This document shows positions 15,655 through 32,350 of a stretch of DNA of 64,000 nucleotides, piece by piece (position 1 is the first letter of the stretch; the number at the start of each line of letters is the position of its first letter). Position numbers and translations under genes: made by a program. Origin of the DNA: Kordia antarctica (GTDB taxonomy: Bacteria > Bacteroidota > Bacteroidia > Flavobacteriales > Flavobacteriaceae); assembly GCF_009901525.1 (NCBI RefSeq), contig NZ_CP019288.1, positions 2,199,501-2,263,500 of the forward strand, given 5' to 3'. The notes under the pieces were generated by a model. The model saw nothing but the letters and a program-made list of their open reading frames with translations, did not search any database and had not been told where the DNA came from.

Positions 15655-15688
15655 TATTTTCCTATTCTTTCAAAATAGTATAAAGTAT

Positions 15689-18600
15689 ATGAAGTTAAAT
15701 TGCCAAACATATCTCCTACTCGCTTTTTTAGTGTTTGGAACTTGGTTTTCAAACGCGCAAAACAATCAGTTACGCGCGTATACGTTAAAAGATGGTTTGC
15801 CACAATCACAAGTAAATGCTATTGTTCAAGACGATTTAGGCTATTTATGGATTGGAACGCAAGGCGGCGGAATTGCTCGTTTTGACGGGATTTCCTTTAA
15901 AATATGGAATGAAAAAAACGGGTTGGGTTCTAACTACATTCAAACATTGCAGTTTCAAAAAGATGCACTATTTATTGGAACGCGTCAAGGACTTTCGGTT
16001 CGAACCAAAAACACATTCAACAATTACACAACGCCGCGCGTATATCATATAGAAACGACAACGAATGCAACATATTTAGCTACTCGAAAAGGAATTTACA
16101 CCTATACTTCTGTTGATGGAACAAAACCTTTGGATTGCAATGCCATCATTAATAACACGCAGATTAACGATATTTTATTTGATGGAACTTCTTTCTGGAT
16201 TGCTTCCCAAAGAGGTTTGTGGAAAACAAATCTCTTAGAGAATACTGGAACATTTATAAAAATTTTAGATGGCGATTTTAAATCGTTAGTCAAGTACAAA
16301 GAAAAAGTAGTTGCGGCGAGTTTTACAGACGGAGTTTATTTGTTTGAAGGTGGAAAAGAAAATTTTCAAATCATTTCAGAAGTAAAACAAATTAATACGA
16401 TCAATTTAATTCATTCGGAAGAATTGTGGATTAACACTACAAATGCAGGAATTAAACGGATTAATCTGACTGATAATTTAGCCGAAAAATCAATTACAAA
16501 ACAAAACGGTTTATCCGTCGACAACATTCGTGAAGTCTATAAAGATCGTCAAAATAATATTTGGATTGGTTCGTCGGGTGGCGGATTGTTTAAATCTGAA
16601 AAGAACAATTTTAGACATTACACAAAAAATAATGGCTTAACTGCAAACCGAATTTATGCCGTTCATCATTTGGAAAATACATTGTGGCTTTCTACGTCTA
16701 AATCTGGTTTAATGACGATTGATTCTACAGGAATTCATCAAGAAAAAGCAACAAGCGACTATTTGAACGTAAAAGTTAGAACCTTAACCAATGATAAAGA
16801 AGGTAGAATTTGGGCAGGAACTGAAAACAAAGGAATTTATATTTATCAAAAAAAGATTCGCGATACAATTGTCTATGATAGCACTTTGGTGGATGAAATT
16901 ACGTATGAAAAACGGCAAATTGAAGACATATATACCGCAACAATTACCACAGAAAACGGTTTGCCTTCCAATTGGATTCGGGCTATAAAAATTTACGGTT
17001 CACAAATTTGGGTTGCTACGTATGCAGAAGGGATTTTTCGTTTTCAATACGATCATGAGAGTAAAAAAATATACAATCTTAAAACATTTGACAGCGAACA
17101 AGGTATTAAAGATTTAGCTATTCGCGATCTCGCTCGCGATGAAACTGGTCGTGTTTGGTATTCCACAAGCAAAGGTCATTTAGGCTATATAAAAGATAAT
17201 AAAGTCACGCATTTAGAACCAAAAGATGTCATTGGAAGTGAAGTAACGATTGGTACAATCCGTTTTCACAATTACGATATGTATCTTGGTACATTTGGCA
17301 AAGGAATTTGGTATTCAACCTTATCTAAAGATTTGGAATTTAAACAATTACAAGGAGAAAAAGATTTGTATTCCGACAATATTTATCAACTTATTTTTGA
17401 CGATAACGGAATGCTTTGGGCAGGAAGCGAACGCGGCGTAGATCAAATTTCTTTAGATAAGAAAAATGAAATCATCGATGTAACTCATTATGGGGAAAAT
17501 GATGGTTTTTTAGGAATTGAAACCTGTCACAACGCAACTACTAAAGATAGTGAAGGAAATTTATGGTTTGGAACTATTTACGGACTTACAAAATATGCGC
17601 CCTCAACCTCAGAACAACAACTTTCGAAACCTAAATTACACTTTGAGAATATAGAAGTTGCATATAAAAGCTTAGATTCGATTGACTTACGCGATTGGAC
17701 AAATTCTAAAAAACGGTTACAACTTTCGGCAGATAAAAACAACATGGCATTTCAGTTTCGTTCAGTCGATTTGGACAATCCTGAAGCAATTGTGTATCGC
17801 TATAAATTTGACGAAGATAACTGGAGTCCGTGGACGAAAGAAAATAAAATCACATTTGGCGGTTTGGATTATGGCGATCATACATTTTTGGCGCAATCAC
17901 GGAATAAAGATTGGCTCGAAAGTGATCCGATTGATTTTAAATTTCACATCATTCAACCATTCTACAAAAAAACGTGGGTTCGCAATGTGTTTTGGACAAT
18001 TCTTGGTTTGATTGCTATCGCGATAGTTTTCTTATATATAAAACGCGTAAAGTCTAAAAACCGTGCCATTCGTGAACGTTTGCAACTCGAAAATCATTTG
18101 CTTTCGCTGGAACAAAAAGCATTGCGTTTGCAGATGAATCCGCATTTTATTTTCAATGTCTTGAACGGAATTAAAGGCATGAGCCGAAACGATATTACAA
18201 AAATGGATACAACCATTAATACGTTTGCTGTGTTGCTTCGGGAAACCTTGACAAATTCTAGAAAAGACACTATTACGCTTGCGCAAGAAATTAAAACCTT
18301 GAAAAACTATGTGGAAGTTGAACGTTTGATGGCGAGCAAAGATTTTGCGTATGAAATAGAATTGGATTCTGAGTTAGATCCGGAAGAAGTATTAATTCCG
18401 CCAATGTTGATTCAACCGTTTGTGGAAAATGCAATTAGACATGGAATTATGCCGTTGCAACGACCTGGCGAATTGAAAGTTCATTTTGCAACAGACAACC
18501 ACTTTTTGTACGCAACAATTACAGACAACGGAATCGGGATTCATCAATCACAAGAAAATAAACCAAAGACAGATCATCAATCAATGGCATTGCAAGTTAC

Positions 18601-18724
18601 CAAAGAACGAATAGAATCGTTGGCTGGTCGCAACACGTTGAAAATTGAAGAGATTTCCAAAAAAGATGCTACCTTAGCAGGGACGAAAATTTCGTTTAAG
18701 ATTCCGCTGGAAACGGAATTCTAA
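15689..18724 (+). CDS. Two-component propeller sensor histidine kinase (LytS/PF06580 type)
   Basis: Membrane sensor kinase. The start at 15689 (MKLNCQTYLLL) gives a signal peptide ending near FSNAQ; the longer frame begins 22 residues earlier without one. The periplasmic part consists of repeated two-component propeller units such as GLPQSQVNAIVQDDLGYLWI and NIWIGSSGGGLFK, followed by a Y_Y_Y domain near residues 670-755. One transmembrane helix lies near 767-785. The cytoplasmic part has the PF06580 phosphoacceptor region MNPHFIFNVL (His near 818) and an ATP-binding N-box FVENAIRHG. 1011 residues, usual for these hybrids, but with no fused DNA-binding domain. The response regulator follows 116 bp downstream. 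Confidence 0.92.
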   Translation: MKLNCQTYLLLAFLVFGTWFSNAQNNQLRAYTLKDGLPQSQVNAIVQDDLGYLWIGTQGGGIARFDGISFKIWNEKNGLGSNYIQTLQFQKDALFIGTRQGLSVRTKNTFNNYTTPRVYHIETTTNATYLATRKGIYTYTSVDGTKPLDCNAIINNTQINDILFDGTSFWIASQRGLWKTNLLENTGTFIKILDGDFKSLVKYKEKVVAASFTDGVYLFEGGKENFQIISEVKQINTINLIHSEELWINTTNAGIKRINLTDNLAEKSITKQNGLSVDNIREVYKDRQNNIWIGSSGGGLFKSEKNNFRHYTKNNGLTANRIYAVHHLENTLWLSTSKSGLMTIDSTGIHQEKATSDYLNVKVRTLTNDKEGRIWAGTENKGIYIYQKKIRDTIVYDSTLVDEITYEKRQIEDIYTATITTENGLPSNWIRAIKIYGSQIWVATYAEGIFRFQYDHESKKIYNLKTFDSEQGIKDLAIRDLARDETGRVWYSTSKGHLGYIKDNKVTHLEPKDVIGSEVTIGTIRFHNYDMYLGTFGKGIWYSTLSKDLEFKQLQGEKDLYSDNIYQLIFDDNGMLWAGSERGVDQISLDKKNEIIDVTHYGENDGFLGIETCHNATTKDSEGNLWFGTIYGLTKYAPSTSEQQLSKPKLHFENIEVAYKSLDSIDLRDWTNSKKRLQLSADKNNMAFQFRSVDLDNPEAIVYRYKFDEDNWSPWTKENKITFGGLDYGDHTFLAQSRNKDWLESDPIDFKFHIIQPFYKKTWVRNVFWTILGLIAIAIVFLYIKRVKSKNRAIRERLQLENHLLSLEQKALRLQMNPHFIFNVLNGIKGMSRNDITKMDTTINTFAVLLRETLTNSRKDTITLAQEIKTLKNYVEVERLMASKDFAYEIELDSELDPEEVLIPPMLIQPFVENAIRHGIMPLQRPGELKVHFATDNHFLYATITDNGIGIHQSQENKPKTDHQSMALQVTKERIESLAGRNTLKIEEISKKDATLAGTKISFKIPLETEF

Positions 18725-18840
18725 ATGTTAAATGCTGAATTTTAAATTTTAAATGTAAAAGAGTTAAACTCACAACCAACAACCAACAACTGACAACCGA
18801 AAACACAAAACTGATAACCAACAACAAACAACTAAAAAAA

Positions 18841-19593
18841 ATGCTCACTACTATTATTGTTGACGATATTCCTTCCGCTTTACAAATGTTAAAAGGCGAT
18901 ATTGAACGTTTACATCCTGAATTGAATATTATTGGAACTGCTTCAAGTGTCGTAGAAACGGCAAAACTCTTGCGCAAGCAACAACCTGATATTTTGTTTT
19001 TAGATATTATGCTCGGCGATGGTTCTGGTTTTGATGTGTTGGAAATTTTTCCAGATTTGACTTCCAAGATCATCTTTGTAACCGCAAGTGACGAATTCGC
19101 TATTCGAGCATTCAAATTTGCTGCAATTGATTATGTATTGAAACCGTATGCTGAAGAAGAACTTTCGTTGGCAATTAATAAAGCTAAAAGTCAGATTCAT
19201 CCGAATAAAGAACGATTGGATATTTTGAAAGATACGTTAGCTGCGCCAAATTCTAAACCAAATAAAATTTCACTTCATACCTTAGATAAAATTATTATTG
19301 TGAGTCTGGATGAAATTATTCGTTGCGAATCGGATAGTAATAATACCATTTTCTATTTGCTAGACGGACAGAAGATTTTCGTGACCAAAACGCTGAAATA
19401 TTTCTCAGATATGTTGAGCAATTACCAGTTTTTACGCGTACATCAAAGTCATTTGGTCAATCTGCAATTTATAAAAGCATTCATAAAAACGGATGGCGGT
19501 TATTTGTTATTAAAAGATAAAAGTACCGTTCCTGTTTCGGTTCGCAAAAAAGTGGAAGTGATGGAAGTTTTGAGTAGTATTCATCGGAAATAA
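18841..19593 (+). CDS. LytTR-family response regulator
   Basis: Cytoplasmic DNA-binding response regulator, almost certainly the partner of the upstream kinase. The receiver domain (residues 1-120) has the acidic pair Asp8-Asp9, the phosphoacceptor Asp55 in DILFLDIMLGDG, the Thr/Ser switch in IIFVTASDEFA and the Lys in DYVLKPY. The C-terminal LytTR domain (about 140-245) shows ISLHTLDKIIIVSLDEIIR, then FLRVHQSHLVNLQFIKAF and VPVSVRKK. 250 residues is typical. The targets are unknown; the GLPGLI/TonB-receptor pair downstream is a plausible but unproven candidate. Confidence 0.93.
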   Translation: MLTTIIVDDIPSALQMLKGDIERLHPELNIIGTASSVVETAKLLRKQQPDILFLDIMLGDGSGFDVLEIFPDLTSKIIFVTASDEFAIRAFKFAAIDYVLKPYAEEELSLAINKAKSQIHPNKERLDILKDTLAAPNSKPNKISLHTLDKIIIVSLDEIIRCESDSNNTIFYLLDGQKIFVTKTLKYFSDMLSNYQFLRVHQSHLVNLQFIKAFIKTDGGYLLLKDKSTVPVSVRKKVEVMEVLSSIHRK

Positions 19594-19961: not shown

Positions 19962-20804
19962 ATGAAATTATTTCTCTTCAAATCTATCTCGATTGTTTTC
20001 TTATTACTGTTTTCATCCAAGCCAACTGTCCAAGAATTTCAAGGTCAGGCGTTCTACTTTTCAAAATCCAAAATGGAATTAGGAAATTGGGGAGCAAGAT
20101 TAAGCGAAGCGCAGAAAAAAGATGTTGCAGCACGTTTGAAGAATCGATTGGAAAAAACATATGTATTAGATTTCAATAAAACTGAATCTGTATTCAATGA
20201 AGAAGATAAGTTAGATGCCATTTCGGGCGCAACAGATTCTTGGGGAAATAATTTTTCAAGAGGCGAACAATATAAAAATGTCAAAGAAAATAAGTTAGTG
20301 CAGACACAAGAATTTTATGGAAAGAAGTTTTTAGTTAAAGATAAATTACAAACCATTGAATGGAAAATGGGCAAAGAAACCAAGCAAATAGGACAATACA
20401 CGTGTTTTAAAGCAACAGCTTCTATACCTTCAAGCGATTTGGCTTGGTATAATTTTTCTTGGGGAGATTTGCAAAGAGCTTCAAGTACCGATAAAAAAGC
20501 AGATGGTACAACTGTTGAAATTACAGAACCTGAAATAAATATGACAGAAGTTGAAGCTTGGTATACGCCGCAAATTCCAGTAAGTCATGGACCAGCCGAA
20601 TATTGGGGACTTCCAGGATTAATTTTAGAAGTAAGCGCAGATAATACGACAATGTTGTGTTCTAAAATTGTATTGAATTCTGGTGAAAATGTTAAGATTG
20701 AAGCACCAAATAAAGGAAAAGAAATTACAAAAAGTGACTATCAAGCAACGATTCAGAAAAAAATGCTTGAAATGAGAAATAACCGAGGAAGAAGAAGAGG
20801 ATAA
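19962..20804 (+). CDS. GLPGLI family protein
   Basis: Secreted protein of a Bacteroidota-specific family of unknown function. A signal peptide spans about residues 1-24. The diagnostic motif appears as EYWGLPGLILEVSADNTT near residues 213-230, preceded by VEAWYTPQIPVSHGP. The C-terminus is basic (RNNRGRRRG). 280 residues, typical. Genes of this family are often followed, as here, by a carboxypeptidase-regulatory-like outer-membrane receptor gene; here the two are separated by 292 bp that contain a MITE-like element. The pair is likely functionally linked (inference from context and recurrent gene order). Confidence 0.93.
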   Translation: MKLFLFKSISIVFLLLFSSKPTVQEFQGQAFYFSKSKMELGNWGARLSEAQKKDVAARLKNRLEKTYVLDFNKTESVFNEEDKLDAISGATDSWGNNFSRGEQYKNVKENKLVQTQEFYGKKFLVKDKLQTIEWKMGKETKQIGQYTCFKATASIPSSDLAWYNFSWGDLQRASSTDKKADGTTVEITEPEINMTEVEAWYTPQIPVSHGPAEYWGLPGLILEVSADNTTMLCSKIVLNSGENVKIEAPNKGKEITKSDYQATIQKKMLEMRNNRGRRRG

Positions 20805-20810
20805 ACACTG

Positions 20811-21008
20811 GTTGTGCATTTTGATAAAATTCGTCAATTCGAGTGAATTTTACGATTGAAAATGAGTGAAATTTGTATCGAGAATAGAATTTTTTGCACC
20901 AAGTAGGTTCTCGATGTTTCGACCAAGCTCAACACAAGTACGATTTTTCGTGCCTCAAAATCACTCGAACTGACGTTTCATTATACTTTTGAATTCAAAA
21001 TGCACAAC
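20811..21008. repeat. MITE-like palindromic element, copy 1
   Basis: 198 bp bounded by GTTGTGCATTTTGA and its exact reverse complement. Just inside lie the inverted arms CGTCAATTCGAGTGAATTTT and AAAATCACTCGAACTGACG. It starts 6 bp after the GLPGLI stop codon. It is highly similar to 31097-31271 and encodes no protein. Confidence 0.75.
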
Positions 21009-21096
21009 GGGTAATAAGTTTTTAATTTTATATTAAACTTTTACCTTAATATATAGTCTAAGTCAAAATGATCTTCAAAACTAACCAAAATCACCA

Positions 21097-23805
21097 ATGA
21101 AAAAAATACTTTGTATTTTCCTATTCCTTGCAGCGAACTGCACTTTTGCTCAAATTAAACTTGAAGGAGTTGTTAAAGATAGCCTGAATAAACCTTTGGA
21201 ATTGGCAAACGTAATCGCCATAAATAAAGAAACTGGCACGTTAGAATCGTATAGTATTACCGATGCGCTCGGAAAGTACAAGTTAGCGTTGAGCAAAAAT
21301 AGCACCTACAAAATGCAGGTAAGTTATATTGGTTTAAAGAATTTAGAGCAAACGCTGTCCACAAAAGAAGTTGATATTGCAAAAGATTTTGTAATGAAAG
21401 AAGGCAATACGTTAGATGCCGTAAAGCTTACCTACGAAATGCCCGTTACTGTTAGAGGAGATACGCTAATTTACAATGCGGATTCTTTTAAAAATGGTAC
21501 AGAACGAAAGCTAGAAGATGTCCTTGAAAAATTGCCAGGTGTAGAAATTAATGAAGATGGACAGATTGAAGTTGAAGGAAAAGTTGTCACGAAATTAATG
21601 GTAAACGGCAAAGATTTCTTTGATGGAGATACCAAATTAGCAACCAAGAACATTCCGTCGAAAGCCGTAGACAAAATAGAAGTATTGCGTAATTATTCTG
21701 AAGTTAGTCAACTGAGAAGTGTTTCAAACAATCAAGATAATGTTGCCATCAACATCAAACTAAAAGAAGGAAAAGAGAATTTCTGGTTTGGAAATATCAC
21801 TGCCGGATCAGGCGCCTCACCAGACAATGAATTGTATCTGTTTCAACCCAAATTATTTTATTACAGTCCAAAATACAGCATTAATTTTATTGGAGATTTG
21901 AATAATATAGGAGAATTAGCCTTGTCACGAAGAGATATTAGAAACTTTGGTGGTGGTTTTAGAGCTCCAAGTAGAAGTAGCGGAACCAATATTAATCTTG
22001 GAGATAATAGTTTGAATTTTTTAACAAGTCAGCAAAATGCTTTAGAAATTGAAAACAAATTGGCTACAGGAAACTTTAGTTATTCTCCAAATGAGGCATT
22101 GGATTTTAGTGGATTCCTTATTTACAATAGCAGTCGTATTCTTTCTAAACAAACAAGTTTTGTACAATATACAGATCCTGAATTGGGAATTCCTGATGAG
22201 GCAACGGAACAAAGAAGTAGAGAACGTTCTGATCAAGTACTTTTGAAACTTAGTACTTCTTACCAACCGAATGTTAATAATCAGCTCGATTATGATGTAT
22301 TGGGACGCATTTCAAACGACAGACAAAATCAAAGTGTTTTTTCTTCAGTAATTGGAAGCACAAATCAACTCGATGAAGTAACGCCGTTTAGCATCAATCA
22401 AAATATAAATTATTATTATACAATTAATGAAACAAATATTTTAGCATTTGAAGCACAGCATTTGTTTAAAAACGAAGATCCTTTTTACAATGCCACTTTG
22501 GGCAATGAACAAAATGGTGCTTTTGATACTACTGCGGAAGCGTTAGGTTTGGATACTTCTGTAGAGAATTATAATTTGAATCAGAACCGACAAATTAAAT
22601 CCAATCAATTGGATGCAAAGTTGGATTACTACAATATTTTAAATGCAAAGAGTAATATCAATATTACACTTGGAACTATTTTGAGTCGCCAAGAATTTAA
22701 TTCCAATCTTTTTCAGTTTTTAGGTCCTGGATTAACATTGAATCCAACACCAACATTTAATGATGGACGCGCAACCAACGATACTGAATACAATTTTAGT
22801 GATATATATTTAGGAGTTCATTACCGATTGAAAAGTGGAAAGTTCACCTTTACACCTGGTTTTTCAGTACATGCCTACGGAAACAATAACAGTCAGTTTG
22901 GAGAAACGTATAAAGATAATTTCTTTAGAGTTTTACCAGATTTTGAAACACGCATTCAATTTAAAAAGAGTGAAGCCTTAACGTTGCGATATAATATGCA
23001 AAATCAGTTTACAGATGTAACACGATTGGCAGAAGGTGTGGTGATGAATAATTTTAATAGCTATCAATTTGGGGAACCTAATTTACAGAACGCGTTGTCG
23101 CACAATGTAAGTTTGGTGTATACGAGTTTTAATTTGTTTAATTATACCAATGTATTTGCAAGAGCATCTTATTCAAGTAATATTGATCAGATACGTGGTT
23201 TGACAAATTTTGAAAATGTGATTCGAACGAGTACGTTTTTCAACTCTAATTTTGCTGATGAAAACGTCAATGTTTTTGGACGCGTACAACGCACGTTTGG
23301 AAAGATTCGCGGAAGCTTAAACGCTCGTTTTAATTATAGTAAAATAAATCAGTTTATTCAAGGACAACAATCGTTGAATGAAGGCTATACACAAACGTAT
23401 ACGCCAGAAGTTCGGACGAATTATAAGGAAGCTCCAAATGTGAGTTTGAGTTACAGATATAGTGTAACGAATAATACGCAAGGAAGTCGTAAGACAAAGT
23501 TTGTCACGACAGCTCCATCAATTGATTTTGATGCGTATATCTTGAAAAGATTGACGTTCCGTACCGATTACACGTATACCAATCAAGATTTAGGAGATGG
23601 TGAATCGCAATCGTTTCAAACGTGGAATGCGTCACTCGCCTACCGAAAAGACAAAGATGCCAAATGGGAATATGAAATTAAAGCGACGAATATTTTAGAT
23701 ATTAGCTCGCAAGTACGAAACAGTGCCAATAATTTATCGGTGTTCACTTCTGAGACGTTTATTCAACCGAGATTTGTTACTTTTAGGTTTGTTTATAGTT
23801 TGTAG
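21097..23805 (+). CDS. TonB-dependent-receptor-like outer-membrane protein
   Basis: Large outer-membrane beta-barrel. A signal peptide spans residues 1-19 (ending TFAQ). A carboxypeptidase-regulatory-like domain covers about 20-105 (LANVIAINKETGTLESYSIT, then DALGKYKLAL). The plug-like region reads VEINEDGQIEVEGK, LMVNGKDFFDGDTKLA and VDKIEVLRNY. The rest alternates beta strands and ends in an aromatic residue-rich strand (FIQPRFVTFRFVYSL), as expected for barrel closure. 902 residues is normal for the family that accompanies GLPGLI proteins. The ligand is unknown. A strong terminator follows. Confidence 0.9.
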   Translation: MKKILCIFLFLAANCTFAQIKLEGVVKDSLNKPLELANVIAINKETGTLESYSITDALGKYKLALSKNSTYKMQVSYIGLKNLEQTLSTKEVDIAKDFVMKEGNTLDAVKLTYEMPVTVRGDTLIYNADSFKNGTERKLEDVLEKLPGVEINEDGQIEVEGKVVTKLMVNGKDFFDGDTKLATKNIPSKAVDKIEVLRNYSEVSQLRSVSNNQDNVAINIKLKEGKENFWFGNITAGSGASPDNELYLFQPKLFYYSPKYSINFIGDLNNIGELALSRRDIRNFGGGFRAPSRSSGTNINLGDNSLNFLTSQQNALEIENKLATGNFSYSPNEALDFSGFLIYNSSRILSKQTSFVQYTDPELGIPDEATEQRSRERSDQVLLKLSTSYQPNVNNQLDYDVLGRISNDRQNQSVFSSVIGSTNQLDEVTPFSINQNINYYYTINETNILAFEAQHLFKNEDPFYNATLGNEQNGAFDTTAEALGLDTSVENYNLNQNRQIKSNQLDAKLDYYNILNAKSNINITLGTILSRQEFNSNLFQFLGPGLTLNPTPTFNDGRATNDTEYNFSDIYLGVHYRLKSGKFTFTPGFSVHAYGNNNSQFGETYKDNFFRVLPDFETRIQFKKSEALTLRYNMQNQFTDVTRLAEGVVMNNFNSYQFGEPNLQNALSHNVSLVYTSFNLFNYTNVFARASYSSNIDQIRGLTNFENVIRTSTFFNSNFADENVNVFGRVQRTFGKIRGSLNARFNYSKINQFIQGQQSLNEGYTQTYTPEVRTNYKEAPNVSLSYRYSVTNNTQGSRKTKFVTTAPSIDFDAYILKRLTFRTDYTYTNQDLGDGESQSFQTWNASLAYRKDKDAKWEYEIKATNILDISSQVRNSANNLSVFTSETFIQPRFVTFRFVYSL

Positions 23806-23825
23806 TATAAGAGATATATAATTGT

Positions 23826-23867
23826 AAAAGCCGAACGACATTTGTTAAATGTTGTTTGGCTTTTTTT
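23826..23867 (+). terminator. Intrinsic terminator after the receptor gene
   Basis: AAAGCCGAACGACATTT pairs with the near-perfect complement ending GGCTTT around a GTTA loop, followed by a run of T. Confidence 0.85.
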
Positions 23868-23890
23868 ATGTTGTTGGTATTTTATTTTCT

Positions 23891-24625
23891 TTATAGACTT
23901 GTGCAACGGTTACCATTGTTAGCCACTGGCTTTTTTCGTACTGTTTTTATTTCAATGCATATTCTATTTTGTAAAACTATAGGTGCTTTAGGATACTTAC
24001 CTAATGATATATCTTTTAGAACAGGTAAATATGTTCCAGGATATATATCAATATTCAATCCCTTATTAGCTAGCACACAAAAAACACTAATTTCTTCTAA
24101 AATAAATTCAATAGAATTTCTTACTGCTGTCTTAAATTCTATACCAGATAATTTATTGTTATTTTCTAATCTTTTTATAAAAATTTTTGCTGTTGTTAGT
24201 ATTGAGGATTCAAAGTCTTTATTTGAATTGTAAAACTCAATTATCTGTTTGTTATAAACTTCATACTCATTATACTCGAAAAAATCTTTCCAACGTGTTA
24301 TCTTAAAAAAATTTGAATTGCCTTGTATTAAAGATTCTAAAACATCAATTATATCATTTCCCAACTTTTGAGTATCTGTAACAAGATTTTTATTTGCATC
24401 TGATTTAATTATTTCTAGATTATGACGATACAAATAATCAGCTACTAATATTGTACATTTTGAAAAATTATTTTTTATAAATTTTAATAAGGCTATTATT
24501 TTATCTTTATTCTGATAAAAATCATTATTTATGCTAACTGCAATATAACAATTACCCTTGTTTTTTAAAGTGTCAATTTCGTGGTTCGGTGTTATATTTA
24601 GAACCTTTATTTTTCTTTCAACCAT
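23891..24625 (-). CDS. tRNA-dependent cyclodipeptide synthase, XYP-like
   Basis: Predicted cytoplasmic enzyme that joins two aminoacyl groups from aminoacyl-tRNAs into a cyclic dipeptide. Aligned by eye to AlbC, the fold markers fall in order. The nucleophile loop AVSINNDFY has Ser31 (AlbC Ser37) and Asn34 (AlbC Asn40). Strand ILVADYLYRHNL follows, then FFKITRWKDFFE. Helix SIEFILEEISVF has Glu178 (AlbC Glu182) but Phe174 where AlbC has Tyr178. Segment NIDIYPG has Tyr195-Pro196, the Tyr-Pro pair of the XYP subfamily. 244 residues is normal. The last dozen residues run into a flanking repeat and may not be native. ATG overlaps the stop of the upstream gene (TAATG). Products cannot be predicted. 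Confidence 0.82.
   Translation of the reverse strand: MVERKIKVLNITPNHEIDTLKNKGNCYIAVSINNDFYQNKDKIIALLKFIKNNFSKCTILVADYLYRHNLEIIKSDANKNLVTDTQKLGNDIIDVLESLIQGNSNFFKITRWKDFFEYNEYEVYNKQIIEFYNSNKDFESSILTTAKIFIKRLENNNKLSGIEFKTAVRNSIEFILEEISVFCVLANKGLNIDIYPGTYLPVLKDISLGKYPKAPIVLQNRICIEIKTVRKKPVANNGNRCTSL
23899..23910. repeat. 12-bp direct repeat at the left edge of the cyclodipeptide-synthase insert
   Basis: TTGTGCAACGGT occurs here, inside the last codons of the synthase gene, and again in the same orientation at 27472-27483 beyond the HEPN gene. The two copies bracket 3.57 kb of unusually A+T-rich sequence. Confidence 0.55.
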
Positions 24626-25035
24626 TACACAGTTTTATCGTCAATATTTCTAGCTAGAAAATGACATCCTAGTGTAAAAAGTATATTAAAAACTGCTGCA
24701 GTAATGATATATTTTGAGTAAGAATAATTCAAATCAGCTTTTGCTTCTTCCGGCGTTGATGTCAAAATCAAATATATTGTTGAACAAATTACAAAAATTG
24801 AGATGATTGTAGTCAGTTTAAGTAATAGGTTTATAAAGGCAGTTTCATAATGGTATTGTCTAGATATTGAATAATTCTTTGGAACATCTAAAAATTCTTT
24901 AAAGTTTACAGGATTGTTGGATGTGTCAATTGCTTTATTTAGAACAATTTCTTTAGACCTGCTTATTGGCTTAATAAGATACATTGCTGTAGAGGAAGAA
25001 ACAGCAATTACACAAGAAAATAGTAATTCAAACAT
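24625..25035 (-). CDS. Small membrane protein coupled to the symporter and cyclodipeptide synthase
   Basis: Unrecognised 136-residue protein with three hydrophobic segments: about 1-20 (LLFSCVIAVSSSTAMYLI), 66-92 (FINLLLKLTTIISIFVIC) and 107-127 (YIITAAVFNILFTLGCHF). A polar cytoplasmic or periplasmic loop with several Lys and Asp residues joins the first two. It starts 1 bp after the symporter stop and its own stop overlaps the synthase start, so the three genes form one translational unit. It could be an accessory subunit of the symporter or a membrane anchor for the synthase (inference only). Confidence 0.7.
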   Translation of the reverse strand: MFELLFSCVIAVSSSTAMYLIKPISRSKEIVLNKAIDTSNNPVNFKEFLDVPKNYSISRQYHYETAFINLLLKLTTIISIFVICSTIYLILTSTPEEAKADLNYSYSKYIITAAVFNILFTLGCHFLARNIDDKTV

Positions 25036-25036
25036 A

Positions 25037-26500
25037 TTATTGTGTTTTAAGGTTTTTAAATTTTAGACCTATTATTAATCCAAATGTAGTTAGTGTCATA
25101 CCAATTGGCGTTGAAAGTTGCGACCATAATTGATTGCTTTCCTCTACTGCTTTGAAAGTTGCATACACAATTATAAACCAAGCTATTAAAATAGAAATAG
25201 AAATTATCCAATTACCAGTTGGCTTCAATGATATAGGGTCATCTTTAAGATGCCAAAGTGAATAAATGATTAATGGCGCTATGATACCAAGTTGACCAAA
25301 AACATTATAGATTAATGGTAAAAACCATTCACCAACATTTGCTTGTGCAACTGAAAAAACTGCAGCAAGTGAAAGCATAATTATAAATGAAATGATTGTT
25401 ATATAGAGTTTTAGTTTTTTTACTTCTAATTTTTCCAAACTTTTCTTAAAAGTATTTGTGTCGGCTAAAGATGTTGTTAATGCAATTAATGCTGTATCAG
25501 CAGTTGAAAATAAAGCACTTCCAAATCCAATAACTATAAGCGGATATAAAACTAATTCAGAAATCCCACCAGAACTTTTTATTGCATCAAGAAAAGAACC
25601 TAAATCTCCAAAATACATTCCCTTACCAGAGAGTATGGCAAATGCAATGACAGGCACGAACCAAATGATTGAAAATTTTAAGATATGAGATCTAAAACCT
25701 TTCCAAACTTCCTCTCCAGAAGTACATGCAGCAACTCTCTGCCAAGAGGATAATTGGGTAAATGGAAGAGAAACATTAATGATTAAAATCCAAAAGCAAA
25801 AAACTAAAGTATTTTGCCATTCTGCATCGAACGAAAAGAACTTACTGAATTCAAAATTAGGACCATTTTCAGATTGAAACAATATGCTAAATAATAAAAC
25901 AGCTATTACTGAAACTAACATTAACATCAGTTGCCAACCATCTGTTTGCATAACTGCTTTTAGCCCACCAATCCGCACATAATAGATTACTATTAATCCA
26001 ACAACAATAAATGATATCACACCGTAGTAAGGTGTAAACGAACTGAAGAAGTAACCGAATATTATGGAACCAACGTATAATTCAATGAATAAAATAATAA
26101 GAAAACTTGTTATAGTCAATGCTGTTATAATTCTTGCATTAACTTTGCTTCTAATCGTATAAAACCATAGGTCAGACACAGTTCTCACATCTTCTTTTAT
26201 TACATCTTTGTCTCTAACATATCTAACAAACAGGTATTGACCAAGTAAATAAGTCAATCCACACCAAAGTAAGGTTAATCCATAAAATTTAGCATTAGTT
26301 AGAAAGAATAACATGACAGTAGCAAGCGAAGAACTTGCTGCTACAAATGAGCTTCCATATTGTTTGCTTGATATTGATTTGTCAGCCATAGTATAGCCTA
26401 TTAGAGAGAACTTTGAAGTTTTTGCTCTAGACGCAAGTAAAATAAAAATTAAGGACGAAATACTCAATCCTATTAGTGCAGTAATGTCAGATATGTTCAT
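25037..26500 (-). CDS. Sodium:solute symporter (SSS) family transporter
   Basis: Inner-membrane secondary transporter, probably Na+-coupled. About 12-13 hydrophobic helices are visible over 487 residues. Family features include the early unwound-helix segment YGSSFVAASSSLATVMLFF near residues 48-66, the WQLMLMLVSV region, LPFTQLSSWQRVAACTS near 250-266, and the segment GFGSALFSTADTALIALTTS near 325-345, which carries the Ser/Thr-rich Na+-site region. The substrate is not predictable; amino acids, peptides or the cyclodipeptide itself are options. It is first in the tight three-gene operon. Members usually import, so export of the product would be unusual. Confidence 0.88.
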   Translation of the reverse strand: MNISDITALIGLSISSLIFILLASRAKTSKFSLIGYTMADKSISSKQYGSSFVAASSSLATVMLFFLTNAKFYGLTLLWCGLTYLLGQYLFVRYVRDKDVIKEDVRTVSDLWFYTIRSKVNARIITALTITSFLIILFIELYVGSIIFGYFFSSFTPYYGVISFIVVGLIVIYYVRIGGLKAVMQTDGWQLMLMLVSVIAVLLFSILFQSENGPNFEFSKFFSFDAEWQNTLVFCFWILIINVSLPFTQLSSWQRVAACTSGEEVWKGFRSHILKFSIIWFVPVIAFAILSGKGMYFGDLGSFLDAIKSSGGISELVLYPLIVIGFGSALFSTADTALIALTTSLADTNTFKKSLEKLEVKKLKLYITIISFIIMLSLAAVFSVAQANVGEWFLPLIYNVFGQLGIIAPLIIYSLWHLKDDPISLKPTGNWIISISILIAWFIIVYATFKAVEESNQLWSQLSTPIGMTLTTFGLIIGLKFKNLKTQ

Positions 26501-26679
26501 AACTTTATGGTTAGTTAATGTTTTTCTTCAGCTTGTGGCCAACGTGTTTGTGTAAAAAAAATTACGGTTTTGTCAGCGAGGAATTTCCGAAGGAAATTCA
26601 GAATTTGGCAAAAATGCAACTGCCTTTGTTTAAGCACTAATTTAGCAATTTTTTTTATACTGTGTTGAGCACAGTAATT
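26501..26679. other. Spacer with small palindromes between symporter and HEPN genes
   Basis: Contains a perfect hairpin GAATTTCC/GGAAATTC at 26581-26599 and TACTGTG/CACAGTA at 26658-26676, next to the HEPN stop codon. The segment 'cttgtggccaacgtgtttgtgt' near 26,532 resembles the flank of the 12-bp repeat copies in style. I read it as a junction between accessory gene units, not as a gene. Confidence 0.4.
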
Positions 26680-27450
26680 TTAACGATGCTTTTCGATTAT
26701 CATATAATTCGTAATTACGTGTTTATCAATTTCCTTTGCTAAATTGTATAAGAATTCATTCCCTTTTAACGCTTTATCTAATGAATAACTTAAGGTTTTT
26801 CCGTGTGCAATTTTATTTCTGTCGTCTCGATAACTATGAAACTTATCTTTATGTTCAGTACTTAAATTATATGTCAATAAATCAGTAATTAAATTTGGAA
26901 TATCCGCACTTTTCCATCTGTTTTTATTTTTTATCATTTGTTTCAGACCGTAAAGGGCTAATTTTTGTGATGGCCAAACTATAGGTTTGTCTTTAATAAT
27001 ATTCGTAAATTTTATATATCTGTCTTTGTCTTTTTTAACATATTCTTTTCTTAATCGATGTAGGTTTTTTTTGTCTTCTAATTCTAAATTTCCGTTTTGT
27101 GCAACTTTGGTTTCTATGAAAGCTAAATACTCTTCTTTTCCGCCGTGGAATTCAATTATTTCATCTATTAGAGAGAAAAAATATGATTCAAAAAAGGAAA
27201 AATTTGAAAGTAAGATGTTTGCTCCCAAAACAGTTTTATATTTATCTAAATTTTCTTTCTCCGTCGAATAAGGAATTGTTGAATTTCTAAATTCAGAGTT
27301 TTCTACCAAGTGAGTACTCGAATCAGTATCGTTTTGTTGGAATGCATATTCTAATTGTGGAACAGCTGTACAGACTAAAACAGAAAAATTCAGAGTTGAT
27401 TGAGAGTGTTCTTTCAATATTAGGAATGCATTTGACCTTCTTATATTCAT
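26680..27450 (-). CDS. HEPN-domain protein
   Basis: Probable alpha-helical HEPN-fold protein, a group rich in RNases linked to defence and toxin systems. The C-terminal half carries the HEPN RX4H motif as R211-NKIA-H216 within YRDDRNKIAHGKTLS, preceded by a long helical region (FSFFESYFFSLIDEIIEF). The 256-residue length fits the RiboL-PSP-HEPN-like or MAE_28990-like groups. No nucleotidyltransferase antitoxin is adjacent, so a toxin-antitoxin pair is not supported. It lies 179 bp upstream of the symporter operon on the same strand within the same A+T-rich insert. Confidence 0.72.
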   Translation of the reverse strand: MNIRRSNAFLILKEHSQSTLNFSVLVCTAVPQLEYAFQQNDTDSSTHLVENSEFRNSTIPYSTEKENLDKYKTVLGANILLSNFSFFESYFFSLIDEIIEFHGGKEEYLAFIETKVAQNGNLELEDKKNLHRLRKEYVKKDKDRYIKFTNIIKDKPIVWPSQKLALYGLKQMIKNKNRWKSADIPNLITDLLTYNLSTEHKDKFHSYRDDRNKIAHGKTLSYSLDKALKGNEFLYNLAKEIDKHVITNYMIIEKHR

Positions 27451-27471
27451 TTTAAGTTCTGATTTTTTTTA

Positions 27472-27483
27472 TTGTGCAACGGT
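27472..27483. repeat. 12-bp direct repeat at the right edge of the insert
   Basis: Second copy of TTGTGCAACGGT, just upstream of the HEPN start. It is followed by an ATGCTCT/AGAGCAT inverted pair (27492-27498 with 27522-27528). Confidence 0.5.
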
Positions 27484-27995
27484 CAGGGATTATGCTCTGT
27501 GGATGCGCAGCATACACGTAAAGAGCATTTACTGTGGATCAATTGTGTATATTCTTAGTTGTGTGTCCGTTTCACAAGTTAAGCAAAAGATTTAATAAAT
27601 ATACTATAAGTTAGTTGATGCATAGCCATTCTCTGACCGTTGTGAGTCATTGAGTGTTACAGGATAACAGAACTTTTAAGTTACTTTTATCCGATTGTTC
27701 TATTTTTTGCAAAACAACATCTGATGGAGCGAAATAGCCACACAATCTGCCTTGTTCTAATTTTTTTCTCAACTTCCTTAAATTAAGTAGCTGTCAAGAC
27801 ATTATTAGTTGGAATTACGCTTCATGCTTTATATCACCTCCGACAGATTCATTATATAACAAGCACTATTTTTACAAAAATTTCTCTTATTCTTGATAAA
27901 TATAAGACAATAACTACAACCATACAATGTGGTTTCCCGTAATCCATATAAAAAAGATAGAAAAACGTGCAAATCACTCTACCAAATACCGCAAC
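27484..27995. other. Gene-free spacer of about 500 bp
   Basis: No convincing ORF, RNA gene or terminator is visible. It is A+T-rich, begins with the palindromic flank of the 12-bp repeat, and may be scar sequence from past insertions. Confidence 0.45.
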
Positions 27996-29114
27996 TTAAA
28001 ACTTCCGAGTAATCAATTTCGGAGCTTTCTTCGGAGTTTCAGAAATAATTTCGAAGTCAATAACACCCAATAATAAATCTTCTTCTGTGGTGACGACTTC
28101 AACTTTCCAAAGTCCGTCAATTACATTTTCTTTGTAGGTGTAGCCTCGAAAACCATTATCGCGTCCGCCAACAATTTCATAGGTTATTTCGTCCGTAACT
28201 TGCCATGTTGCTGTTGCAGGATCAAAATAATTCCATCGATGCGAAACCGCTTTGTTTAAATCCGTCGGAGCAAAAATAGAAGAGAATACATATACACGTT
28301 CATTAGGATTGTGAAAGAATTTTATTTTGTGATCTCGCCAAAATATATACCATTCATCCGATTCATACGTCACCACATACTCATTGTTTTCTTTCGTAAT
28401 ATTATGCGCTACCATTCCTTTATCTAACGCCAACGGAACTGGTGGAATCATGTTAAAATAATACAACACATTGATAAATAGATACATGGAAAGAATGATT
28501 CCTAGAAGCTTAGGCAGCTTAACTTCCGATTTCGTACTCGGACTAGAAAAGTAAATGAATAGGATTAGTAAAATTGTCATAACAGTACTTATGATTCCTG
28601 AAATTATAAAAATAGTAGTATTTATTTCCTTCAAAATCACTGGAATCATAAAAGCAAAGAATGTAAAACTGATGAAGTAATACACACTAAACTGAAGATA
28701 TTTATTAGAAATTCTTTTCTTTAAAAACTCATTCGCTATTAAAAGCAACACTAGAATTGCAAAGAAAGTACCCGTTTTAGATAATGAAACACTTCTAGAA
28801 AAGTAAATAACATACGCGCTAGAAAGTCCTCCAAAAAAGAATTGAATGGCTAATGGGAAATACTCTTCATATTTTTCTAAAAAGGTGTTTTCCCACTTGT
28901 TATCATCCGCTAAATTAAATAGGTATAATGTAATTGTTAGCAATGTCATGTGTGACGTTAACATCACTAAATCGTAGACTCTATCAATTCTGCCGAGCGT
29001 TAAAGAATCAAAAATAAAACCTCCAATAAAGAATATAATTGGCGCATACTTTTCATGCTTTCTGATAAAATTTCGAAAGGCACTATTTCTAAATTTGACT
29101 AATGTTCTTTTCAT
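27996..29114 (-). CDS. DUF2914 membrane protein
   Basis: Inner-membrane protein of unknown function. About seven hydrophobic segments occupy residues 20-225 (for example YAPIIFFIGGFIFDSLTL and YLQFSVYYFISFTFFAFM). The C-terminal soluble region is a DUF2914 domain, recognised by VYVFSSIFAP, VSHRWNYFDP, GGRDNGFRGYTYKENV and GLWKVEVVT before LGVIDFEI. I set the start at MKRTLVKFRNS (29114), since the upstream 50 residues of the open frame are a Ser/Phe-rich stretch unlike a protein start. 372 residues. It is preceded by the TPR-protein gene on the same strand. Confidence 0.8.
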   Translation of the reverse strand: MKRTLVKFRNSAFRNFIRKHEKYAPIIFFIGGFIFDSLTLGRIDRVYDLVMLTSHMTLLTITLYLFNLADDNKWENTFLEKYEEYFPLAIQFFFGGLSSAYVIYFSRSVSLSKTGTFFAILVLLLIANEFLKKRISNKYLQFSVYYFISFTFFAFMIPVILKEINTTIFIISGIISTVMTILLILFIYFSSPSTKSEVKLPKLLGIILSMYLFINVLYYFNMIPPVPLALDKGMVAHNITKENNEYVVTYESDEWYIFWRDHKIKFFHNPNERVYVFSSIFAPTDLNKAVSHRWNYFDPATATWQVTDEITYEIVGGRDNGFRGYTYKENVIDGLWKVEVVTTEEDLLLGVIDFEIISETPKKAPKLITRKF

Positions 29115-29271
29115 ACTTGAGGATTGATCGCTAAATATAGTCGTTACTAAAAACTTAAGTGAACTCATTAACGATAATGATGAGCTGAAAAATGAAGCTT
29201 CCCGTAATTCACTAAAAAAGGTGGAAAAAACACAAATATTCTTCTCAAAATAACAGCAAAACAAACGTTCT

Positions 29272-31074
29272 TTACTTCTGTCCTTTTGCTTTTATACAGT
29301 TATTTAATAATTGTGCATCTACTGTGATACCAAGTTCTTTTGCAGCAAGTAAATCCAAACAATAGTCTGGCTCGGCTAACATTTGTTTTATTTGCCCGCG
29401 AATGTAAAAAGCAAAACCAAGTGTATTGTCTATTTCAATGGCAGTATTACAGTCGGATAGCGCAGCTAGTAAAGTGGATTCCGATTTTTTAAATGACGAT
29501 GTAGTCGGAGAGTTCCAACGAATACTTAACGGTTGTGTATTGAAATTTCCATAAATAGAAAACGACCTAAATTTTATTTTCTCAACGGAACTCACCTTTG
29601 CAATTGCCCGATTTACATACGCCAAAGGGTAGTTTTTATTAATTTTTATACTTTCATTAAAGTCATTTATGGCACGTTTATAGTCCTTTTTTGTTACATA
29701 AATATAACCTCGCATGTTGAAATATGCTTCTTTATTGAATCCATCTATACTAGGTGCTACCGTTATTCCTTTATTGATTTCAGTGAATGCTTCATTAAAT
29801 CGACCTAAATTAATGTTGCATTCTGAAATACTTAAATATATGGTGGCTAATGAACCATTGTAATAACTTGTAATTTTGTCGCTTGATGCACCAGAAAACC
29901 TTGGATTAATTTTTATTTCAGCTTTTATTTTTTCTTTATTTTTTAATGATACGCTGTAACATGCAAGTGCTTTTTCAAATTCATTTAAAATCAAATACGT
30001 ATTTCCTTTAAATGATAGCATCATTGCATCATCCGGAAATTTTTTAAGTCCAATAGCATATATATCAAGTGCTTTTTGATATTCTCTTTTGTTATAATAC
30101 CCAACACCTCTTTGATAGTAATAACTAGGTTTTGAAGAATTGCAAATGTCTTGAATAGCACCATTTATTTGTGTTATGAATGCTTCGTCGTTGATTGTAC
30201 CATCTTCAATAAATGATTTTAACGTTGAATAGTCAGCACATGAAGCGTCAAGATCTTCTAACTCGTAATATATCAAAGCTCTGTTTATATAAGATGCATA
30301 ATCATTTTTATCTACAGAAATAGCTTTTGAGTAATCGTTTATTGCTTTTTGGTATTCTTGCAACGCATAAAATATTGCCGCTCTTCCTATATATGATGCG
30401 GATTGACTACTATCAATTTCAATTGCTTTGTTGATATCTTTTAAAGCTTCTTTAACTCTTCTTTGATTTAAATAAACACTAGATCTATGAAAATACGGAT
30501 AATAGTTTTTGGGAGCTAAAGTTATTGCTTTTGTTAAATCGGAAATAGCTGATGATGGATATCCAGAATTTGAGTTGTAAAGTCCACGCATTATATAACT
30601 ATCTGGATTGTTGGGATCAATTTTTATTGCTTTGTTATGATCGCTTAATGCGCCAAATTTATCACCAAGCATTTCTTTTAACTTTCCTCTGTAAGAATAA
30701 AGCAACGCCTCATTTGAGTCTGTCTGTACTGCTGTATCAAAATAATCAAGTGCTTTTTTGTTGTCGCCTCTTAAAGAATAAATTCTGCCAATATTCAGAT
30801 AACAACGAGCACATTTTGGATTAACCTTCAACGCTTCCAGATAGTATTTTTCACCAAGATCGAGATTGTTTTTTACAATATGAGCATACCCAAGTGCACG
30901 AAGTACGTTTTCATTTTTTGGATATTTCTTTAGTTCCGTCTCAAAATAGTGTACCAATTCATCTTTCTGTCCTATATTTAATAAGGAATCACTAATTTTT
31001 TGATACGCTTCTTTGGATTGCCCAAAAGTAAATGTCACAAAGAACATTACTACTATTGTTATTATTATTTTCAT
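29272..31074 (-). CDS. Secreted tetratricopeptide repeat protein
   Basis: Exported helical-repeat scaffold. A signal peptide covers residues 1-19 (MFFVTFTFGQ). At least ten TPR units follow in two blocks, about 20-290 and 320-590, with canonical pieces such as ALGYAHIVKNNLDLGEKYY and AYVNRAIAKV. Between the blocks is a short linker. Partner proteins cannot be inferred. The downstream DUF2914 gene starts 158 bp away on the same strand and may be co-transcribed. A MITE-like element sits just upstream of the start. Confidence 0.88.
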   Translation of the reverse strand: MKIIITIVVMFFVTFTFGQSKEAYQKISDSLLNIGQKDELVHYFETELKKYPKNENVLRALGYAHIVKNNLDLGEKYYLEALKVNPKCARCYLNIGRIYSLRGDNKKALDYFDTAVQTDSNEALLYSYRGKLKEMLGDKFGALSDHNKAIKIDPNNPDSYIMRGLYNSNSGYPSSAISDLTKAITLAPKNYYPYFHRSSVYLNQRRVKEALKDINKAIEIDSSQSASYIGRAAIFYALQEYQKAINDYSKAISVDKNDYASYINRALIYYELEDLDASCADYSTLKSFIEDGTINDEAFITQINGAIQDICNSSKPSYYYQRGVGYYNKREYQKALDIYAIGLKKFPDDAMMLSFKGNTYLILNEFEKALACYSVSLKNKEKIKAEIKINPRFSGASSDKITSYYNGSLATIYLSISECNINLGRFNEAFTEINKGITVAPSIDGFNKEAYFNMRGYIYVTKKDYKRAINDFNESIKINKNYPLAYVNRAIAKVSSVEKIKFRSFSIYGNFNTQPLSIRWNSPTTSSFKKSESTLLAALSDCNTAIEIDNTLGFAFYIRGQIKQMLAEPDYCLDLLAAKELGITVDAQLLNNCIKAKGQK

Positions 31075-31096
31075 AAGATTATACTAATATATACCC

Positions 31097-31271
31097 GTTG
31101 TGCATTTTGATAAAATTCGTCAATTCGAGTGAATTTTACGATTGAAAATGAGTAAAATTTGTATCGAGAATAGAATTTCTTACACTAAAGCAGGTACTCG
31201 ATACAATTTTTCGTGCCTCAAAATCACTCGAACTGACGCTTCATAATACTTTTGAATTCAAAATGCACAAC
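31097..31271. repeat. MITE-like palindromic element, copy 2
   Basis: 175 bp with the same GTTGTGCATTTTGA termini and the same inner arms as copy 1 at 20811-21008. The first 80 bp are almost identical between copies; the centre is shorter here. It lies 23 bp upstream of the TPR gene. Confidence 0.75.
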
Positions 31272-31442
31272 TGGTTAATATATGCATTTACGAAACTTAC
31301 ATTTCCTATTCGTTTATTTCTCATTAAATATAATACAAACATCACAGCTATACAATGAAGTTTTCAGTAATTAAAACTAAAGAATAAACAGTCTATCAAA
31401 AACCTCCGCTGCTTTTGTACATTTCCTGCGGTGCTTTTGATC

Positions 31443-31462
31443 AAAACCTAAGCAGGTTTTTT
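31443..31462 (-). terminator. Short terminator hairpin
   Basis: AAAACCT (31443-31449) with AGGTTTT (31454-31460) and a 4-nt loop, T-rich on both strands. It lies beyond the degenerate SRPBCC fragment and could end transcripts of the small secreted protein gene. Confidence 0.45.
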
Positions 31463-31515
31463 AGTTAAGAAAAAGTTGAAAATTATCGTGTCATAAACGA
31501 CTGTATATCAATCGT

Positions 31516-31690
31516 TTATTTAAAAATTGAAGTAGTCGCTCTTTTTATAAAATAATTCCAATTACCAACGTAGCTTTCACGTTTAAATTTGAGAATGTCG
31601 TCGGGAAAATTTTCCACACTTTTGTAATTATCGCGAATTGTGTTCCATTGTTGAGTGGCTTTAATTCACTTAACAAACAGACGCATTTTG
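31516..31690 (-). pseudogene. Degenerate C-terminal fragment of an SRPBCC gene (fragment A)
   Basis: Translating the reverse strand gives NFPDDILKFKRESY, then NWNYFIKRATTSIFK and a stop. This aligns with FPDDIPEFKRESCIGGWNYF at the end of the intact SRPBCC protein. No start or N-terminal half is present. It is the more diverged of the two fragments. Confidence 0.65.
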
Positions 31691-31708
31691 TATATATAGG
31701 CTATTGGC

Positions 31709-32164
31709 TCACATTTTTATTTTCATTATTTTTTTTAGAAACTCATTTAAATTAGAAATAGCAATTAGTTCATCTTCGGAAGCGACATTTAAGATTAATG
31801 GTTGTCTGTTAACTATTCCATATACTATGATACGGTTCCAATTTTTTGGGTTTTTGTAGGTAAATTTATAACCCTTCAACGTAGCGCCAAATGAGATTAC
31901 TTCGATCTGTTCTTTAGAATTAGCTTTCTTGCCGAATTTTTTGATTAATTGTTCTGGAATAGTTTTTAGCTTTTCTTTATTTAGATGTATCCATTGAACT
32001 GAAATTCCATTACACTTTAAAAGTTCGAATTTTGATTTGGCTATACAGTTCTTTGGAACCTCAATCTCAATATTTGCATAATCTAACGTTTTAATTTCTT
32101 GGTTAGATTGAGAAAAGCTGATGTTAATAAATAAAAGGCTGAAAATTAAAAGAAGTTTTTTCAT
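31709..32164 (-). CDS. Small secreted protein of unknown function
   Basis: A signal peptide spans residues 1-19 (LLFINISFSQ). The mature 130 residues are Lys-rich with ANIEIEVPKNCIAKSKFELL, the segment EVISFGATLKGYKFTYK and a C-terminal helix. Two Cys near residues 39 and 50 could form a disulfide. No family is recognised. Its start codon lies 2 bp beyond the stop of SRPBCC fragment B, and fragment A follows its stop, so it is wedged between two broken copies of a neighbouring gene. This suggests the locus arose by duplication of a two-gene unit (inference). Confidence 0.7.
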   Translation of the reverse strand: MKKLLLIFSLLFINISFSQSNQEIKTLDYANIEIEVPKNCIAKSKFELLKCNGISVQWIHLNKEKLKTIPEQLIKKFGKKANSKEQIEVISFGATLKGYKFTYKNPKNWNRIIVYGIVNRQPLILNVASEDELIAISNLNEFLKKIMKIKM

Positions 32165-32166
32165 AA

Positions 32167-32350
32167 TTAAGTTTTTATTCTATCAAGATAAGCAACCAAA
32201 CGCTCTTTCACAAAATAATTCCAACCGCCAATACAACTTTCACGCTTGAATTCGGGAATATCGTCGGGGAAATTTTCAATAACTTTTGTGGTTAATGTAA
32301 GTTGTGTTTTGTTGTTGTGCGACTTCAATTCAAACGTTACATACGAATCG
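32167..32350 (-). pseudogene. Truncated C-terminal copy of the SRPBCC gene (fragment B)
   Basis: The reverse strand encodes a C-terminus ending FVKERLVAYLDRIKT. Its positions 32282-32350 are identical over 69 bp to 32683-32751 of the intact gene, and 32212-32268 is nearly identical with the same 401-bp offset. Similarity stops abruptly at 32350, where unrelated repeat-like sequence begins, so the N-terminal two thirds are lost. Confidence 0.85.

Follow-up and report, generated by a model that had tools for sequence, protein, structure and literature searches.

A three-gene operon in Kordia antarctica

On the minus strand of a 64,000-nucleotide window of the Kordia antarctica genome (G000:C1:2199501-2263500; the host genome is a single contig of 5,500,985 bases) lie three closely packed genes that encode a divergent protein of the sodium:solute symporter (SSS) family, a small membrane protein and a homolog of the cyclodipeptide synthases (CDPSs) (Table 1). 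Our best reading of this trio is a portable module for making and moving a cyclodipeptide. A preliminary description of the same DNA had noted the compact arrangement of the genes, which the coordinates of the open reading frames (ORFs) and the junction sequence confirm: the symporter and small-protein genes are separated by 1 base, and the small-protein and CDPS genes overlap at a TAATG, which combines the stop of the former with the start of the latter. The presence of a CDPS gene in K. antarctica is already in print, the genome paper of strain IMCC3317T giving, in the part cited here, one CDPS cluster reported by antiSMASH (PMC7477175). Since the CDPS protein and the PF16715 profile each give a single match in this genome, the published cluster is very probably the present operon.

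Table 1. Features of the operon and its surroundings, in window coordinates
Feature	Position	Strand	Remarks
CDPS-family protein, XYP-type	23891..24625	-	244 amino acids (aa), 24.8% GC
Small membrane protein, no recognised family	24625..25035	-	136 aa, three hydrophobic stretches
Divergent sodium:solute symporter (SSS/SLC5) family protein	25037..26500	-	487 aa, A329-x-x-S332-T333 at Na2-like position
attC R'-like cassette start, upstream of the symporter gene	26528..26545	-	ACGTTGGCCACAAGCTGA
attC R''/L''-like cassette end, fused to about 22 bases matching the end of an insertion sequence (IS)	23898..23923	-	GGCTAACAATGGT; overlaps the last CDPS codons
HEPN_RiboL-PSP domain protein, neighbour outside the three-gene unit	26680..27450	-	256 aa, perhaps a separate cassette
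Stretch specific to K. antarctica	23806..27995		4.19 kb

The CDPS homolog and its predicted fold

The 244-aa protein is a CDPS-family homolog of the XYP type, and this assignment is firm. A profile search of the kind proposed in the preliminary description gives an E-value of 1.7e-5 against PF16715 (25.1 bits, narrowly below the cut-off of 27), and TIGR04539 matches at 44.7 bits (E 1.1e-11; cut-off 45). Comparison with the CDPSs of the PDB by phmmer returns 9j61 (E 4.5e-23) and 5ocd (E 2.1e-16). A profile built from 33 relatives (the 36 phmmer matches minus L015, a fragment, and L046 and L049, which are 592-aa frames), with the Kordia protein left out, gives that protein 104 bits, the best of 200 shuffled sequences reaching 6; among the 64 window ORFs of at least 80 aa the product is its sole match at an E-value of 10 or below.

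An AlphaFold2 model based on a 20-row alignment (mean predicted local distance difference test, pLDDT, 86) agrees with this assignment and with the proposed likeness to AlbC. Foldseek places 9j61 from Streptomyces sapporonensis first (E 4.8e-17, TM 0.80/0.91), followed by enzymes of Fluoribacter, Nocardia and Rickettsiella, with 5ocd and 5mlq among these entries, and then AlbC itself (4q24, 8.7e-9); among the 50 matches listed, ranks 1 to 44 are solved CDPSs and aminoacyl-tRNA synthetases begin at rank 45. The predicted structure thus has the HUP fold of CDPSs, resembling that of class I aminoacyl-tRNA synthetases. Alignment over the whole length, as claimed previously, holds for residues 4 to 230 approximately but not for residues 237 to 244, where the pLDDT falls below 50; the final codons of the gene fall inside a junction sequence of which the genome has further copies. 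The Kordia protein and 9j61, which share 26% identity, group together at 100/99 in a 21-row tree with long branches, for which the tree program cautions that a grouping of this kind can be spurious.

Full matches to the CDPS were confined to its own genome, whether we searched 395 genomes of the order with the protein, 395 of the phylum with PF16715 or 373 of the family with a CDPS profile, three draws that share genomes and are not independent. Two partial matches within the order (E 3.5e-4 and 9e-4, in frames of 583 and 588 aa) were set aside as chance. No match to the CDPS, the symporter or the small protein was found in plasmids, and none to the CDPS in phages; one of four scans of viral contigs gave one distant CDPS and the other three none.

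Active site and substrate pockets

Residue roles, numbering and the definition of the XYP subfamily follow the passages cited from PMC5935735 and PMC13062777. Alignment with the relatives bears out the positions given in the preliminary description: Ser31, Asn34, Glu178 and Tyr195 correspond to S37, N40, E182 and Y202 of AlbC, and Pro196 is the XYP proline. The catalytic serine (Ser31) is a serine in 33/33 relatives, the X40-Y202-P203 signature is represented by Asn34, Tyr195 and Pro196, the conserved E182 by Glu178, and the P1 pocket residue Trp112 is kept. The conserved tyrosine Y178 of AlbC, one of the four catalytic residues, is replaced by Phe174, so that three of the four are present, and we therefore use the label "CDPS-family homolog of XYP type" and not that of a proven active CDPS. 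The cyclodipeptide pathway proposed earlier is accordingly sustained as regards the fold and the XYP-type signature but had overlooked the exchange of Tyr for Phe at a catalytic position. The homolog may still be active.

The pocket codes of the Kordia protein, at the positions defined in PMC5816076, are YALAWVFD (P1) and FRLNGYL (P2), which equal no code in the table examined from that source. Our mapping of the pockets was checked by 9j61 only, for which it gives the P1 code FGLGCIFM, near the codes FGLGCVFM and FGLGCIFF that, in our own linking of codes to enzymes, belong to cLI/cLL producers (PMC5816076). 9j61 is the best match in both sequence and structure and shares N-Y-P at positions 40, 202 and 203, but differs from the Kordia protein in this P1 code and in having Tyr at the Y178 position. 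The Asp at position 200 of the Kordia CDPS is unusual; 19 of the 33 relatives have Glu there, and the only listed code that ends in Glu accompanies Tyr in both pockets (PMC5816076).

The two membrane proteins

By sequence comparison the 487-aa protein is probably a member of the SSS family, as the preliminary description had it, though a divergent one. Its relatives in L006 and L012 share 27 and 26% identity with it and match SSF at 66.6 and 48.7 bits, and a joint profile of the three proteins, dominated by L006 and L012 and not by the Kordia protein, spans residues 15-455 of 5nv9 and also matches NIS, SMVT and SMCT1. In NCBIfam, PutP and the SSS superfamily model match weakly, at 20.1 and 20.4 bits respectively. 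Read by hand through this profile, A329, S332 and T333 align with A339, S342 and S343 of 5nv9, which we take to be residues of the Na2 site of SiaT; the A-x-x-S-[ST] pattern on transmembrane helix 8 is thus present, with residue roles assumed from SiaT. A crude count of hydropathy gives 10 hydrophobic stretches, a LeuT-type fold having about 13 transmembrane helices. Symporter matches at an E-value of 0.001 or below occur in 9/395 genomes of the order and 12/374 of the phylum, the own genome included and the others weak, and in 1/11 genomes of the genus, its own.

The hydrophobic stretches of the 136-aa protein likewise come from a crude count. It has no Pfam family above cut-off (MatE, at E 0.0015, lies below it), no NCBIfam match at an E-value of 1 and no convincing PDB match. 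An analogy is offered by the DUF485 protein, which according to the passage cited is always in an operon with actP, an SSS transporter (PMC5715377). As there, the partner of an SSS gene in the operon is a functionally uncharacterised small membrane protein, and by this analogy a partner subunit of the symporter would be the likeliest role of the 136-aa protein, which however lacks a DUF485 Pfam match, has three hydrophobic stretches and is encoded downstream of the symporter.

A variable site with cassette-like ends

The CDPS operon appears to be horizontally acquired. The outer-membrane gene at 21097-23805 is conserved in nine other Kordia genomes (82-91% identity), as are the anchors 34628-35518 and 35662-36993, and the cargo between them differs. 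Genes for the CDPS, the symporter, the small protein and the HEPN neighbour are present in none of the nine aligned Kordia loci at this site; a tenth genome, G750, falls outside the comparison in having only a 53% paralog of the first anchor. In two of the nine genomes, the convergent genes that border the 4.19-kb insert of K. antarctica are separated by 176 and 355 bases. The GC content of the CDPS gene is the lowest among 42 window ORFs (z -3.2) picked from the 52 of at least 100 aa.

Short motifs recur at both ends of the trio. The 5' motif ACGTTGGCCACAAGCTGA has five sites in 3/11 Kordia genomes at up to 2 mismatches (reversed control, 0), the four others resembling by eye the R' end of integron attC sites; one of these, in G743, has a 432-aa integrase-like frame about 4.6 kb away. 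The 3' motif has three sites in its own genome at up to 3 mismatches (control, 0). At the CDPS end, GGCTAACAATGGT forms an R''-like box complementary to the symporter-side R' with one wobble, and the bases that follow match the end of an IS whose DDE transposase has 520-521 aa. The CDPS-side stretch folds with a z of -3.9, but the facing gene's terminator hairpin accounts for much of this value, and the IS scar cuts through the box. The variable locus, the recurring attC-like ends and the IS scar together suggest that the trio is one multigene integron-like cassette whose attC was later struck by an IS. GTTGCACAAG at the CDPS end was also considered as part of an attC R' box and was ruled out, comparison of IS copies showing it to be the IS end.

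The insertion sites of the IS itself (DUF772/DDE_Tnp_1_6) seem to be attC-like boxes (CAACACCGGT or CTAACAATGGT); a similar box is found on one side of 5/5 copies, in loci (L088, L092 and L093) that were chosen by the box motif or by integrase. A 389-aa tyrosine recombinase about 550 kb away (L088:6400-7569, G000:C1:1668399-1669568) gives a partial match to TIGR02249 at 124 bits (cut-off 265), a type of search that also gives matches in all 14 control genomes. Downstream of this recombinase are attC-like boxes interrupted by IS copies, possibly a chromosomal integron of Kordia.

Gene partners of CDPSs elsewhere

A transporter beside a CDPS gene is less unusual than the preliminary description held. 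The gene partners of CDPSs have been reviewed, by authors whom we take to be Giessen and Marahiel. Section 2.1 of that review (PMC4159871, 2014) already names sodium solute symporters, as well as ABC and major facilitator superfamily (MFS) transporters, among the genes found near CDPSs; it does not describe the symporters further, counts one Bacteroidetes CDPS and mentions neither a small membrane protein nor a cassette. According to the passages cited from PMC5767969, MFS efflux proteins and the membrane-protein domain DUF202 are recurrent neighbours of CDPSs, and PAS domains have been noted near their genes. The pairing of CDPS and transporter is therefore known, and what is new in the present operon is its variable setting, the attC-like end motifs and the IS scar. 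Literature searches for a cyclodipeptide synthase with a symporter or with an integron returned no description of the trio.

A scan of genome contigs yielded 34 distant CDPS loci (best E 1e-19), to which we added L014-L016; some neighbours of these 37 loci were scanned, within flanks of up to 6 kb (3 to 5 kb for L014-L016, several contigs being shorter). All five transporters scanned near a CDPS (L032, L036, L037, L038 and L048) are of the MFS type, which adjoins the CDPS in Xenorhabdus, Photorhabdus, Streptomyces and Nocardia loci, and 2-oxoglutarate (2OG) oxygenases precede it in L032, L038 and L041. Histidine kinases with PAS domains adjoin the CDPS in L014, L016, L017 and L018. In two of these loci (L014:3887-6527, on a sponge-symbiont plasmid, and L016:1410-5690, on a contig of a viral collection) the kinase is a membrane protein that combines a PQ-loop repeat with the PAS domains, and CDPS and kinase together are a candidate cyclodipeptide sensing pair.

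The absence of classical tailoring genes noted earlier is upheld: among the 20 main ORFs outside the trio between 10887 and 45085, none was recognised as encoding a P450, 2OG oxygenase, methyltransferase or cyclodipeptide oxidase; 19 of them were scanned with Pfam and one, the TPR protein at 29272-31074, with NCBIfam only. Five of the 20 match no Pfam family, so an unfamiliar tailoring enzyme could be among them. The bicyclomycin clusters likewise pair a CDPS (BcmA) with a transporter gene (the MFS gene bcmT), and are described in the part of PMC5930311 cited here as scattered by horizontal transfer, with MFS genes recruited independently; unlike the Kordia operon, with its SSS protein and no recognised tailoring gene, they also contain a P450 and five 2OG dioxygenases.

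Interpretation of the operon

We give about an even chance to the reading in which the operon is an acquired integron-like cassette, with a CDPS that is likely active via Ser31 and with the SSS and small proteins moving the cyclodipeptide or a precursor of it. The three genes would have been acquired horizontally as one, probably integron-like, cassette. The CDPS would most likely use Ser31 to join two amino acids borne by aminoacyl-tRNAs as a cyclodipeptide, a reaction that the exchange of the usual tyrosine for Phe174 perhaps slows, and the SSS-type Na+-coupled transporter with its putative small membrane partner would carry either that product or a precursor amino acid through the inner membrane.

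Several observations weigh against this reading. SSS proteins are normally importers, including importers of amino acids, and fit poorly with export of a product. The symporter alone falls below the cut-off of PF00474 (SSF; 22.0 bits against 22.8) and finds its best PDB match, a sodium/iodide cotransporter, at E 0.6, and for the small protein no relative was detected, its single-sequence model being poor (pLDDT 58). The attC case is built on short motifs that differ at one base each from the R' and R'' consensus as taken here, and the fold of the HEPN-symporter junction is unexceptional (z -1.0). Both curated CDPS cut-offs are narrowly missed. The position of AlbC Tyr178 is a tyrosine in all 33 aligned relatives and in 9j61, and the passage cited from PMC5935735 reports that the Y178F change in AlbC substantially impairs formation of the aminoacyl-enzyme; with Phe174 at this position product formation cannot be assumed. 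The trio was found in no other locus, the 37 CDPS loci from other genomes (of 102 loci in all) giving no match to SSS or to the small protein within flanks of up to 6 kb, some loci being shorter. This absence is weak evidence, since 9j61 was not in the alignment behind the patterns of the contig scan, which could miss its clade. The data searched contain no close relatives of any of the three proteins, so that the expectation of the same gene order in other genomes, although not borne out, is not refuted either.

It is unlikely, though it has to be taken seriously, that the CDPS is impaired or repurposed, with synthesis strongly lowered or abolished, the gene being either in decay or that of a tRNA-binding or acyl-transfer protein that makes, for example, a non-cyclising dipeptidyl or aminoacyl product. 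The exchange of a tyrosine found in 33/33 relatives, the impairment of step one by Y178F in AlbC and the flipping of the ester that it allows in simulations (passages cited from PMC5935735), the lowest GC content among the ORFs compared, the C-terminal codons within the junction sequence and the divergence of the protein on a long branch all point in this direction. However, the frame is intact, the fold is well predicted, Ser31, Glu178, Tyr195, Pro196 and Trp112 are kept and the tight operon layout is preserved, and decay would probably have cost the serine or the frame as readily. Rather less probable is that an SSS transporter and its small subunit merely happen to precede a CDPS gene amid acquired cargo. 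The locus is variable across Kordia, no co-occurrence of the three genes was found in the other loci searched and the symporter and CDPS genes differ in GC content (31.6% against 24.8%); against this, chance would have to account for the 1-base and TAATG junctions, for the attC-like ends around the trio and for a pairing of CDPS and transporter that is recurrent.

Two further explanations we consider quite improbable. In one, an exported or leaked cyclodipeptide is re-imported or sensed by the SSS protein and its small partner, much as SSS domains serve in kinases of the CrbS type, where an SLC5 domain is fused to the kinase (PMC5715377, in the part cited). The signalling role suggested in the preliminary description gains from the PAS-histidine kinases beside CDPSs in four loci and from the PAS domains noted near CDPS genes (PMC5767969, likewise in part), but the Kordia operon includes no kinase, regulator or receptor, and the nearest two-component genes seen (15623-19593) are on the opposite strand, with two other genes in between. 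In the other, the symporter brings in an amino acid for the CDPS, which uses it in the form of aminoacyl-tRNA, a role consistent with the amino-acid importers presumed among SSS proteins and with the weak PutP and SSS superfamily matches; yet the bacterium makes or imports amino acids anyway, and the pairing is found in no relative.

A bolder form of the preferred reading, that of an acquired synthesis and transport cassette, appears doubtful to us: through an unassigned pocket code (P1 YALAWVFD, with its Asp at position 200), the product of the CDPS would fall outside the specificity groups so far known and might include a polar or basic residue; the enzyme would have dispensed naturally with the step-one tyrosine; and the three genes would form a self-contained mobile cassette that spreads among hosts both the synthesis and the Na+-coupled transport belonging to it. 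What cyclodipeptides do for the bacteria that make them is poorly understood, according to the passage cited from PMC5767969, and a minimal CDPS unit that has a transporter and a small partner and no recognised tailoring gene would allow the role and the destination of the bare cyclodipeptide to be addressed in one operon. The change to Phe174 and the cassette-like ends add to its interest. The universality of the accepted step-one mechanism could be judged from an enzyme with a natural Phe at the Y178 position, and the occurrence of isolated CDPS genes in the Bacteroidota could be explained by transfer of a whole CDPS operon in a multigene cassette.

Neighbouring genes and other features of the site

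The HEPN_RiboL-PSP gene, with a GC content of 28.4%, lies directly upstream of the operon on the same strand and perhaps represents a separate acquired cassette. PADLOC gave no match among the five proteins of 23891-29264, and apart from this HEPN neighbour a defence reading is thus unsupported. Among eight cargo proteins scanned with Pfam from window positions 23806-34600 and from the corresponding Kordia loci (L066-L074), seven from other Kordia species and one from the window, a single one matched a family (TPR repeats). The variable segment is flanked by repeats at 20801-21012 and 31087-31275, about 10.3 kb apart, in which stretches of 102 and 74 bases are 92 and 95% identical.

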